Shown here in pieces: positions 18,255 to 22,347 of a stretch of DNA of 43,933 bases. The notes beneath the pieces were generated by a model that had not been told where the DNA came from, did not search any database, and was given only the letters and a program-made list of their open reading frames with translations. Position 1 is the first letter of the stretch. Every line of letters starts with the position of its first letter. Source of the DNA: Desulfobacterales bacterium (lineage in GTDB: Bacteria > Desulfobacterota > Desulfobacteria > Desulfobacterales > CAFBRK01); contig JAIPEL010000021.1 of assembly GCA_021737185.1 (NCBI GenBank), positions 1 through 43,933 of the forward strand, read 5' to 3'. The position numbers were made by a program, and so were the translations under genes.

Positions 18255-18932
18255 TCAGGATTTCTGGACAGCATCAGAATCGGTGCCGCCGTCGAGCAGC
18301 GCGTCCAGTTCAGAAAGCTTCTGGATTTGGCAGACCGCGTCGAGTTGCTGATCGCCGTAGGCCACCAGGGCGACACCGGCTGCGCGGGCTGCCTCCTCGT
18401 CCACCTTGGAGTCTCCCAGATACAGGGCCTGCTCGGCCGAGACGTTGAAATGGTCCAGGACTTTGAGCAGCATGTCCGGATGCGGTTTCGGGCGGGGGAC
18501 GTCGGATGAACAGACCACCAGATCGAATGCATCCTTCAGGCCGAATGTATCCAGCAGCGGCTTCATGGTATCGGTTCGATTGGTGGCGACGGCGGTTTTC
18601 CAGCGGGGTCGAAGCGATGCCAGCAGCGGTTTCAGGGTCGGCTCCATCTCCATATACGGCAGAAACGGCTGGTAGCCCATCTGCCTTCGAAACTCGTGGG
18701 CGGCCTTTCGTTCTTCCGGATCGTCGAACAGGTAGGCAAGGGCGTTGTCCACCGTGTGCATATGCACGTAGGTGAACTGCTCCTCGGTGAGAAGCGGCCG
18801 GCCGACGTGGGATAGAAGGCTGTTGTAGTAGGCCCGGTTGGCCCGCCGGGTGTCGAACAAAACCCCGTCACAGTCGAAGACGACTACCTGAATGTCACGG
18901 AAAGAAAAAGAGGGGCAGTTCATAATGATCAT
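18255..18932 (-). CDS. HAD-superfamily phosphatase (Gph-like)
   Basis: A 225-residue haloacid dehalogenase-fold hydrolase, subfamily IA. Motif I FDCDGVLFDT holds the nucleophile Asp and the acid/base Asp, motif II is AVATNRT, motif III Lys is in RPKPHPDM, and motif IV is LGDSKVDEEAA. The nearest common relatives are phosphoglycolate phosphatases, but the substrate is undetermined. ATG 18932 lies two bases from a strong hairpin; a second ATG at 18923 with GGAA upstream may be the true start. It lies 41 bases downstream of the DUF1573 gene on the same strand. Confidence 0.87.
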   Translation of the reverse strand: MIIMNCPSFSFRDIQVVVFDCDGVLFDTRRANRAYYNSLLSHVGRPLLTEEQFTYVHMHTVDNALAYLFDDPEERKAAHEFRRQMGYQPFLPYMEMEPTLKPLLASLRPRWKTAVATNRTDTMKPLLDTFGLKDAFDLVVCSSDVPRPKPHPDMLLKVLDHFNVSAEQALYLGDSKVDEEAARAAGVALVAYGDQQLDAVCQIQKLSELDALLDGGTDSDAVQKS

Positions 18933-18934
18933 TC

Positions 18935-18977
18935 CGGCGGCGCAGCCGCCGCATATAAATGCGCGCAGCGCATTTAT
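18935..18977. terminator. Double hairpin over DUF1573 stop codon
   Basis: Stems 18935-18941/18945-18951 (7 bp, loop GCA) and 18955-18964/18968-18977 (10 bp, loop GCA). The TAA stop (18974-18976) of the DUF1573 gene is inside the second stem. The whole element fills the gap before the HAD gene and would also mask that gene's ribosome-binding site. Confidence 0.65.
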
Positions 18978-19675
18978 TCTGTGACGTATCCGTATATCTT
19001 GATCTTTATCTCCGGCTTCACCGGGCTGTCGGTTTTGAGCACGATTTGCTCAAAGTACCGGCCTTTTTCCTCACGGATGTTTTTCACGGTGAGAAGGTAG
19101 CCCGGTTGGCCGGGATTGTCGAGCCGGGAAAGCATATAGTGGATATTGTCCGTCTGCTCTTCCACCGGCCCCAGAATCCGGAACCGGTATCGATCTTCGG
19201 GGACGATCCGGATCGTGGCGTGAATGTCTTCTCCCGCCCTTCCGAACAGCTTTGCAAAGTTAGGCTCGATGGAGGCGAACCGCTCTACCTTGCCGAGAAT
19301 GACCAGCGAAAACTGCTGCCGCCGCGGGTCGTTGCAGTAGACCAGGGCGGTTTTGGACAGGTGCTGGCCGCCATAGCCTTCGGTGTTGACATTGATGACG
19401 ATGTTTCCCTCGCCGCCGGGAGGGATCTGCCTCGGATAGGAGGCAACCGAGCATCCTCAGCCGGTGCGGACGTTTTTGATGACCAGGGGGGCGTTACCGG
19501 TGTTGCGGACCGAAAAGGCGTGGGTGACCTGCGTTCCTTCTACCACCGGATCGAACGCGTACCGCACTTTTTCGATTTCGACCCGCGGCGCCGCCGGCGT
19601 CTGGCTCGGGGCGGCCTCCGCAAAGGACACGGGCAGCAGCAGCAGTGCAAGTATGCCGAATATTCTGAGCTTCAT
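18974..19675 (-). CDS. DUF1573 protein with predicted selenocysteine (UGA at codon 73)
   Basis: Read through one TGA (19457-19459), this is a 233-residue exported protein. Signal peptide MKLRIFGILALLLLPVSFAEA, then a DUF1573 (PF07610) Ig-like domain: VEIEKVRYAFDPVVEG, NTGNAPLVIKNVRTG, then U-G-C-SVASYP, IPPGGEGNI, GGQHLSKTALVYCNDP. The family normally has C-G-C at this point, so TGA replaces exactly the first Cys. The frame after TGA is open for 160 codons, conserved through NDP, and ends in TAA inside a hairpin. AAGGAG stands eight bases before the ATG. Candidate SECIS stems follow the TGA. A sequencing error or nonsense mutation is the alternative, but the position makes Sec more likely. 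The in vivo role of DUF1573 proteins is unknown; a periplasmic redox function for U-x-C is inference. Confidence 0.82.
19428..19459 (-). promoter_or_regulatory. Candidate bacterial SECIS (UGA plus stem-loop)
   Basis: After the TGA (19457-19459) the sequence can form TGCCTC (19445-19440) with GAGGCA (19433-19428), a 6-bp stem extendable by a G-U pair, loop CTATCC, placed about 11 nt after the UGA. An alternative stem CTCGG/CCGAG gives an 11-nt loop. Spacing fits bacterial SECIS elements, but neither loop starts with the usual G, so the call is tentative. Confidence 0.5.
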
Positions 19676-19764
19676 CGATTCACTCCTTTGTAATCGAAAA
19701 ACCATACGGCGCATAACATCGTCTGTCAAGCCGCCGGAGCGCCCTCCCATGGCTCCGCCAAAGT

Positions 19765-19923: not shown

Positions 19924-22347
19924 TTAGAGCATCGACACCGGGTCAACGTCCACGGACACGCGGACCCGGCGATCCGAGGGCGCGTCTTCCGCCAAGAGGA
20001 CCCGGCGGACAAGCTGACGCAGAACTGCGGCGCCGGGGCCTTTGACCAGAAGCTGCCATCGGAATCGGCCTGCAATCTTGGACAGGGGAGATTCGATGGG
20101 ACCCAGCACTTCGACCTCGGAATGCAGCATCCCGGCTGCGGCGCGCAGCCGGTCTCCGATCTGGCGCGCGGTTCGGGCGACCGCGCCTTTTTCCTTTCCA
20201 CTGAATCGAAGCTGAAGCAGGCGGGCAAACGGCGGGTAGTTGAGCTTGCGGCGAAATTCGATTTCCCGCGTGAAAAAGGTCCTAAAGTCCTGGTCCCTTG
20301 CGGCTGTGATGCAGAAATGGTCCGGGTTGTAGGTCTGCATCACTACCCGGCCGGGGCGGTCGCCCCGGCCGGCCCGGCCGGCGACCTGGGCCAGCAGTTG
20401 AAACGTCCGCTCCCCGGCCCGAAAATCCGGAAAGTTCATCGAAAGATCCGCGGACACAATGCCCACCAGGGTGATGTTGGGAAAGTCGTGCCCCTTGGCC
20501 ACCATCTGGGTGCCGATCAGGACGTCGATTTCCCTTCGGCGCAGGGCGCGCAGCAGCTTCAAGATGGTCCCCTTGCGGCCGGTGGTGTCGCGGTCCATCC
20601 GGGCGACGCGAGCCTCTGGAAACAGACCTTGAACCGTTTGCTCAAGTTTTTCGGTGCCGAGACCGAGCAGCCGGATGGCTTCGGCACCGCAGGCGTCGCA
20701 GACGGATTGGGAGGGCCGCTGGTAGCCGCAGTAGTGGCAGCGATAGACGTTTTGTCCCTGGTGGAAAGTCATGGCGATGTTGCAGTGCCTGCAGGTGACC
20801 GGGCTGCCGCAGGCCCCGCAGACCGGAAAGCTCGAGTAGCCTCTCCGGTTGAGAAACAGCAGCACCTGTTCATTGCGCTGCAGGGCTTCTGCCATGGCAC
20901 GGCGCAGCGGCTCGGTCAGATACCGCTGCGGTCCGCGAAGATCCCTTACAGCCGTCAGGTCGACCACCTCGATGGCCGGCATGGGGCGGCTTTCGATCCG
21001 TTCGGGAAGCTGGATTTCGACAAACTTGCCGCTCTGCGCATTGTGAAACGACTGAACCGAGGGGGTCGCCGAGCCGAGCACGGCGACAGCCCCGGCCAGT
21101 TTGGCCCGAACCAGGGCCATGTCTCGGGCATTGTACCGAAGTCCGGTCTCCTGCTTGAAGGATGGGTCGTGTTCTTCGTCGACGACGACCAGGCCCAGGG
21201 GAGTCACCGGGGCAAACAGGGCCGACCGGGCGCCGATGACCACCTTTGCCTCGCCGCGGACGACCCGCATCCATTGATCGAACCGCTCCCCGGCGGTCAG
21301 GGCGCTGTGCAGCACCGCGATATGCGCCCCAAAGCGCGCCCGAAACCGCCTTTCCATTTCGGTGATCAAGGCGATCTCCGGAACCAGCACAAGGGTTCCC
21401 TTTCCCAGATCGAGGGCCTCCCGGGCCGCATGAAGGTAGACCTCGGTTTTGCCGCTGCCGGTCACCCCGGTCAAAAGAAAGGCGGCGTATCCGTCCGGCA
21501 GCCGCGCCGTGATCGTGTCCACTGCAGCGCGCTGGGCATCGGTCAGCGCAGGAGGGCTGTCCGGGGGGATTGGCTCTCCGAAGGGATCGCGGTAGACCGT
21601 CTGCCAGTGGATGAGGACCTGTCCGTCTTTTTCCATGGCCCGGATCAGTGCCGGCGCCGTGGGAACATGCTCTTTGAGGCGGCGGATCGGCATCGGCCCC
21701 TGCGACGCCAACATCGCGATGATTTTCTTCCGGGGTTCGGAAAGGGCTGCCGCGGGCGCAGGCGGGGACAGGGCGGCGATCCGCTCCTTGAGATGCCGGG
21801 CGCTGCCTCCGGCCAGCTGGGTTTGCCGCCGGACGTATCCGCCGGCCTCCAACTCGCGAACGAGGGCCTGATTTTTCGCAGGCGCGTTCCGGCCGACCAC
21901 CCTCTGGATGGAAACCGGGTGCTGCAGCCGCTGAAGAAGATCCCGGGCGGCGGTCCTGAGCCCGCCGCCGGCCAGCAGCTCCCGTCCCCGATCGGTGATG
22001 GTCAGCGTCGTCTGGTCCGATACGGTGACGCCTCCGGGCAGGCCGGTGCGAATCGTCTCTCCTAAAGGATGCAGATAATACTCTGAGATCCATCGAAAAA
22101 AGGGGATCATGGATTCGGAAAAGATCGGCGCCTCGTCCATGACTTCGATCACCGGTTTCAGGGCTTTTTCCTTGATCGGTATGCCGGGCCCCAGGACGAA
22201 TCCGGTGACCCGCCGGTTTCCGAAGGGAACCAGTACCCGCTTGCCGGGAAGCACGTCCTGAACAAGGCCTTTGGACACTCCGTAAGTGAAGGTCCCCTCC
22301 ACCGGGAGGGCGACTGCGATTTCGAGCGTTTGGAAGAATTTTGCCAT
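19924..22347 (-). CDS. priA: Primosomal protein N' (replication restart helicase)
   Basis: A 807-residue superfamily 2 helicase that reloads the replisome at stalled forks. The N-terminal 3'-DNA-binding domain (VALPVEGTFTYGV) is followed by a winged helix, then the helicase core with Walker A GVTGSGKTEVYL and DEEH box VVDEEHDPSFKQE. Eight zinc-binding cysteines follow (CGACGSPVTCRHC, RCHYCGYQ, CDACG), then motifs V-VI (GTQMVAKGHDFPNI, QVAGRAGRGDRPG) and a C-terminal domain. Full length. The start at 22347 has a weak GGCGGG upstream. Confidence 0.97.
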   Translation of the reverse strand: MAKFFQTLEIAVALPVEGTFTYGVSKGLVQDVLPGKRVLVPFGNRRVTGFVLGPGIPIKEKALKPVIEVMDEAPIFSESMIPFFRWISEYYLHPLGETIRTGLPGGVTVSDQTTLTITDRGRELLAGGGLRTAARDLLQRLQHPVSIQRVVGRNAPAKNQALVRELEAGGYVRRQTQLAGGSARHLKERIAALSPPAPAAALSEPRKKIIAMLASQGPMPIRRLKEHVPTAPALIRAMEKDGQVLIHWQTVYRDPFGEPIPPDSPPALTDAQRAAVDTITARLPDGYAAFLLTGVTGSGKTEVYLHAAREALDLGKGTLVLVPEIALITEMERRFRARFGAHIAVLHSALTAGERFDQWMRVVRGEAKVVIGARSALFAPVTPLGLVVVDEEHDPSFKQETGLRYNARDMALVRAKLAGAVAVLGSATPSVQSFHNAQSGKFVEIQLPERIESRPMPAIEVVDLTAVRDLRGPQRYLTEPLRRAMAEALQRNEQVLLFLNRRGYSSFPVCGACGSPVTCRHCNIAMTFHQGQNVYRCHYCGYQRPSQSVCDACGAEAIRLLGLGTEKLEQTVQGLFPEARVARMDRDTTGRKGTILKLLRALRRREIDVLIGTQMVAKGHDFPNITLVGIVSADLSMNFPDFRAGERTFQLLAQVAGRAGRGDRPGRVVMQTYNPDHFCITAARDQDFRTFFTREIEFRRKLNYPPFARLLQLRFSGKEKGAVARTARQIGDRLRAAAGMLHSEVEVLGPIESPLSKIAGRFRWQLLVKGPGAAVLRQLVRRVLLAEDAPSDRRVRVSVDVDPVSML

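Follow-up and report, generated by a model that had tools for sequence, protein, structure and literature searches.

The gene and its neighbourhood

The window (the whole stretch of 43,933 nucleotides from a Desulfobacterales genome that was analysed) carries on its minus strand a putative selenoprotein gene of the OS_HP2/DUF1573 type (18974..19675), which begins with an ATG at 19675, ends with a TAA at 18974 and encodes 233 residues when its TGA is read as selenocysteine (Sec). The first-pass annotation had described one frame of this kind interrupted by a single TGA at 19457-19459, and translation confirmed it. This TGA is residue 73, located in the context VRTG-U-GCSVASYPRQIPPGG of the minus-strand translation; the motif around it reads T-G-U-G-C-S, and the Sec-Gly-Cys codons themselves (TGA GGA TGC; 19451..19459, minus strand), read from the sequence, are aligned in relatives. 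The same frame continues for 160 codons after the TGA, and a Pfam match to DUF1573 (5.4e-21) covers residues 33-130 (19286..19579, minus strand; predicted to be Ig-like in fold), in agreement with the earlier statement that DUF1573 sequence goes on beyond the TGA. At the start of the gene, approximately residues 1-21 (19613..19675, minus strand) were judged by eye to be a likely signal peptide, and the sequence AAAGGAG (19683..19689, minus strand) would be the likely ribosome-binding site.

GC3 is 0.78 upstream of the TGA and 0.73 downstream of it. A rule for listing such read-through frames yields 42 in the whole window, so that an open read-through frame alone is weak evidence; what raises this gene above chance is that homology extends to either side of the TGA, that the TGA codon is conserved, and that an RNA structure follows it. 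Here again, a gene that carries TGA seems split unless it is set beside relatives.

A domain scan of the window frames identified a HAD-family hydrolase as the downstream neighbour (18255..18932, minus strand) and priA as the upstream neighbour (19924..22347, minus strand). HAD matches were obtained in 71 of 80 related loci, with a HAD cluster 0.4-1.1 kb downstream in 64, and priA matches in 43 of the 80, with a priA cluster upstream in 42; the flank available exceeded 700 nt downstream in 76 loci and 2500 nt upstream in 64. Additionally, a cluster recognized by eye as polA-like lay downstream in 21 loci. The identified neighbours are housekeeping-type genes and offered no functional clue, and phage records gave no match.

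Family membership and decoding of the TGA

The protein scored 139.8 bits against the NCBIfam model NF041425, ‘OS_HP2 family (seleno)protein’ (curated cut-off 100), and contains the OS_HP2 motif UGC, with TGA at the first Cys and the second Cys retained; since this model exists, annotation that uses it can name the protein. The first-pass annotation knew of no described DUF1573 selenoprotein, a view refuted by NF041425 and by published tables. A DUF1573 (pfam07610) selenoprotein with the motif UGC is tabulated in two reviews (PMC9312934; PMC13188914), where the row in PMC13188914 cites a 2007 paper on the Olavius algarvensis symbiont, a symbiotic deltaproteobacterium (its reference 60), and that of PMC9312934 refers to its reference 63. 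A table from 2008 (PMC2398784) gives OS_HP2 with pfam07610, UxC, and the figures 2, 2 and 354, quoted here without their column heads. The DUF1573 selenoprotein family is already published, since at least 2008, and the gene is not novel in kind.

The genome that holds the window is a 4.54 Mb draft in 201 contigs, 91% complete. The genes for Sec incorporation that had been named for a check, selA, selB, selC, and selD, are all represented in it, by selA (608 bits), selB (367 bits), two full selD genes, both over the cut-off (L006, G000:C61; L007, G000:C60), and a tRNA-Sec with anticodon tca (RF01852 match). A further RF01852 match in this genome that exceeds the score (L009) is a tRNA-Ser. Both selD genes have an in-frame TGA of their own, close to where the match begins. 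In the phylum sample, selB was matched in 276 of 297 genomes at E 1e-50 (263 over the cut-off); being nearly universal there, it discriminates little by its presence and was rejected as an uninformative predictor of the TGA or Cys form. Among the matches listed, 4 of the 61 genomes with a TGA inside the family match were without a selB match at E 1e-50; these four genomes are 76-100% complete and comprise 40-740 contigs.

The family was found in 54 of 58 genomes searched, own genome included (52 above the cut-off), and 32 loci were read, namely the two own-genome copies and 30 relatives chosen by score. Both own-genome copies have UGC, including the second OS_HP2 copy (L002, G000:C142:19485-20165), which is 40% identical and contains one TGA, and the 30 best-scoring relatives divide into 25 with UGC and five with CGC. 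Named genomes were scanned with patterns drawn from five TGA loci, and of the 142 relative-encoding loci obtained, the best 80 by closeness were retained; all 80 have TGA at precisely this codon, with GGN TGY after it. Since the scan was seeded with TGA loci and favoured the closest ones, this count says little about the frequency of Sec in the family. The 80 loci also partly overlap the 30 score-chosen relatives (e.g., L043 = L010, L042 = L011), and the two sets are not independent. Among the TGA-carrying loci are L064, from the genome of Desulfosarcina alkanivorans PL12, which is complete, and L081, from D. cetonica JCM 12296. In the phylum sample of 297 genomes, the family was matched in 119 (above the cut-off in 35), and 61 of these 119 had, among the matches listed, a TGA somewhere inside the family match.

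On the Cys side, 20 further relatives, picked for having no internal stop, contained an in-frame CGC in 15 cases, CAC in three, CFC in one, and a changed second Cys in one. Two expectations of the first-pass annotation, that the TGA would align with a Cys of homologs and that other homologs would carry TGA, were thereby borne out, the former by the five CGC relatives of the 30 and the 15 of the Cys-side set, the latter by the 25 score-chosen relatives and the best 80 of 142 loci.

Several individual loci deserve description. In L126, L133, L134, and L136, CFC or CAC stands for CGC, with the C-x-C spacing kept and the middle residue varied. The Cys form L129 (G346:C192:2612-3499) retains TRQ together with four or more of the five pairs of the RNA helix A described below, and may represent a recent Sec-to-Cys change; its genome (G346) carries a TGA form too. 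In each of G014, G036, G046, G093, and G346, one family match has a TGA inside and another is without TGA, and in G093 the TGA-containing and TGA-free matches lie ∼1 kb apart on one contig.

Two readings would deny the TGA a coding role. If it were a true stop, the gene would be a decayed or split DUF1573 gene, and a standard stop codon does break the frame, the Sec call coming from comparison only; however, the identical TGA codon in the best 80 of 142 loci and in 25 of 30 score-chosen relatives (partly overlapping sets), together with the conserved downstream protein and RNA helix, leaves this reading extremely improbable. A sequencing or assembly error that turned TGC or TGT into TGA could be sought in a draft of 201 contigs, but the same TGA occurs in other genomes, the complete genome (L064) among them, so that error is excluded for the family and deserves hardly any credence for this gene. 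On comparative sequence evidence, the TGA is very probably selenocysteine, and membership in OS_HP2 (DUF1573, ‘UGC’), with UGA read as Sec in a Desulfobacterota-type genome, appears nearly certain.

RNA structure downstream of the TGA

The first-pass annotation had also pointed to a search for a SECIS-like structure after the TGA, and one was found, consisting of a covarying hairpin that is mostly lost in Cys forms. This hairpin, RNA helix A (19429..19444, minus strand), has five pairs and a 6-nt loop, starts 12 nt after the TGA, and joins columns 16-20 with 27-31, numbered from the T of TGA; it was recognized by compensatory changes and by its absence from most Cys forms. In 27 TGA loci, 94.1% of cells were paired, with two-sided changes at three of the five pairs, and in the named TGA loci 94.4% of cells were paired, versus 32-53% when the helix was slid and 37% in the 20 Cys forms. 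All five pairs were present in 64 of 78 TGA forms versus 1 of 20 Cys forms, and four or more in 3 of 20 Cys forms. Pair 17-30, which couples position 2 of a Val/Ala codon with position 3 of the codon at the Arg site, was TA in 40, CG in 22, TG in 16, and CA in none of 78 distinct sequences (Fisher p 1.6e-9, only indicative, as the rows are related). Of 66 Arg codons in helix A, 59 are AGR, compared with 208 of 652 in the remainder of the genes, and the mean predicted pairing probability of the helix falls from 0.78 in TGA forms to 0.01 in Cys forms. In 65 of 79 sequences the first two loop positions are free of G. In the second own-genome copy, L002, helix A is quite different in sequence yet complementary.

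Further downstream, RNA helix B (19406..19425, minus strand; columns 35-42 with 46-54) has a GG-containing apical loop 39 nt after the TGA. Two-sided changes are rare in it (1 of 216 cells), and because there is almost no double-sided covariation, helix B rests on pairing and biased synonymous codons: its Glu codon was GAG in 74 of 77 cases versus 236 of 775 elsewhere, and its Pro codon was CCT or CCC in 78 of 79 cases versus 309 of 654 elsewhere. The mean predicted pairing probability of a 7-pair version was 0.55 in TGA forms and 0.0 in Cys forms. The loop begins with GG in 78 of 79 TGA sequences; GG persists in 17 of the 20 Cys forms, and it also encodes part of a Pro-Pro-Gly-Gly protein motif. 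A candidate lower stem joining columns 4-7 to 34-37 was dropped, as 94.4% of its cells were paired in TGA forms but 85% were also paired in five Cys forms.

The element as a whole was assessed by folding, shuffling, and comparison with the bacterial consensus. With default settings, RNAalifold returned the lower stem and helix A for 27 sequences; for 79 sequences it returned another 5′ stem and part of helix B, with helix A missing, when the UGA was included, and part of helix B only (-1.3) when it was not. Under RIBOSUM scoring, and without the UGA, helices A and B were both obtained for the 79 sequences (-26.7), and neither helix for the 20 Cys forms (-1.1). In single-sequence folding the stretch from the window folded no better than shuffles (z 0.03), so that stability alone identifies no SECIS here. 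Five measures were compared with shuffles, and two did not stand out clearly: for pair types, 471 and 475 of 500 shuffles equalled or surpassed the observed value, and for two-sided pair changes 10 and 27 of 500 did. An Rfam search of the window at gathering thresholds gave no match. In the bacterial SECIS consensus as given in a review (PMC13188914), an apical G lies 16-37 nt from the UGA, and MFE is a further criterion of the model. Stems of five or more uninterrupted pairs whose apical G falls within 16-37 nt were found in 18 of the 79 TGA sequences and in 4 of the 20 Cys forms; relaxing the rule to 40 nt and four pairs gave 74 of 79 TGA sequences versus 11 of 20 Cys forms.

Predicted protein, proposed mechanism and known systems

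The AlphaFold2 model of the protein (mean pLDDT 92.7) is built almost entirely of beta strands, with UGC located where strand 64-71 turns into strand 75-79. Its best PDB structure matches were chains of the ciliary central apparatus, 2qsv from Porphyromonas gingivalis ranked 19, and lower matches included many Ig- and cadherin-type domains; no thioredoxin-fold entry was evident by title among the structure matches listed. A PDB sequence search returned only 2qsv (E 0.016). TM-scores by query length were 0.32-0.42 for the first 20 structure matches, which could reflect two Ig-like domains differing in mutual angle. The predicted fold is a tandem Ig-like beta sandwich and not a thioredoxin.

Among the 80 named loci, 15 have a reading frame of >330 residues, and 10 of these were scanned for domains; an OmpA domain was above the Pfam cut-off in seven, just below it in one, and absent from two. 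The OmpA domain is N-terminal in L046, L059, L094, L095, L102, and L105, and C-terminal in L057. OmpA-like domains bind peptidoglycan, and the fusions of relatives therefore support a periplasmic protein that in some species would be wall-tethered. Together with the signal-peptide-like start, seen by eye, they make a periplasmic location a supported assignment.

In the mechanism that we propose, SelB and tRNA-Sec would read the UGA as Sec, steered by the RNA structure just 3′ of it, as comparison of relatives suggests; the protein would be exported and would comprise two Ig-like beta-sandwich domains, with Sec-Gly-Cys predicted at the turn between two strands. Sec and Cys would then most likely form a reversible selenenylsulfide, exchanging with thiols or disulfides of periplasmic partners. 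Taken alone, this redox step, which corresponds to the periplasmic Sec/Cys pair suggested in the first-pass annotation, is plausible and moderately probable; the predicted fold, which is not thioredoxin-like, and the housekeeping-type neighbours count against it. Alternatively, the Sec and Cys of U-G-C may bind a metal or metalloid (e.g., copper, mercury, arsenic) and not exchange thiols, as a two-ligand UxC/CxC motif on a predicted Ig-like scaffold would allow; in 4 of the 20 non-TGA relatives the C-x-C pattern persists around a different middle residue (three CAC, one CFC), so that it is the spacing and not the Gly that is conserved. However, a scan of 10 window frames near the gene found no metal-handling family, the corresponding check in relatives gave clustered neighbours mostly without annotation, and most selenoproteins of known function are oxidoreductases, as stated in PMC2398784, leaving metal binding an unlikely alternative to the selenenylsulfide exchange.

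As for decoding, the proximal hairpin, usually without an apical G, may fold 16 nt out between the UGA and helix B, and the GG loop of helix B may be the SelB site, its nominal distance of 39 nt becoming an effective 23 nt. The full reading, that OS_HP2 mRNA contains a two-hairpin SECIS (helix A as spacer, helix B with the GG loop as SelB site) and encodes an Ig-fold protein that is wall-tethered where fused to OmpA, is offered tentatively, as possible though rather doubtful. A narrowly worded literature search found no two-stem-loop SECIS, and a separate one found, by title among the papers listed, no OmpA-fused selenoprotein; the two-hairpin RNA and the OmpA fusions are absent from the passages of the published OS_HP2/DUF1573 listings that concern the family, and the word OmpA occurs nowhere in the reviews PMC9312934 and PMC13188914. 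If the two-hairpin reading were true, current bacterial SECIS search rules would overlook a class.

Thioredoxin-like redox selenoproteins have a thioredoxin fold with UxxC or CxxU. The window protein differs from them in its predicted Ig-like fold and its U-x-C motif; it is a likely selenoprotein whose predicted scaffold is Ig-like rather than that of a thioredoxin. With OS_HP2 (NF041425; UGC rows in the reviews) it shares the domain, the UGC motif, and a score over the cut-off, and no protein feature of the window gene lies outside that family. The bacterial SECIS consensus, as given in PMC13188914, shares with the element described here a stem-loop after the UGA, matched by helix B with GG opening a small loop; however, helix A is mostly without an early-loop G, and the loop of helix B, at 39 nt, lies beyond 16-37 nt. 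Finally, DUF1573 proteins with CGC (Pfam PF07610) share the domain and the motif position, with Cys where the window gene has Sec, and, unlike the TGA forms, most are without helix A; the Sec forms, which keep a codon-skewed RNA structure, and the Cys forms, most of which have lost it, make up a natural set for what bacterial SelB requires.
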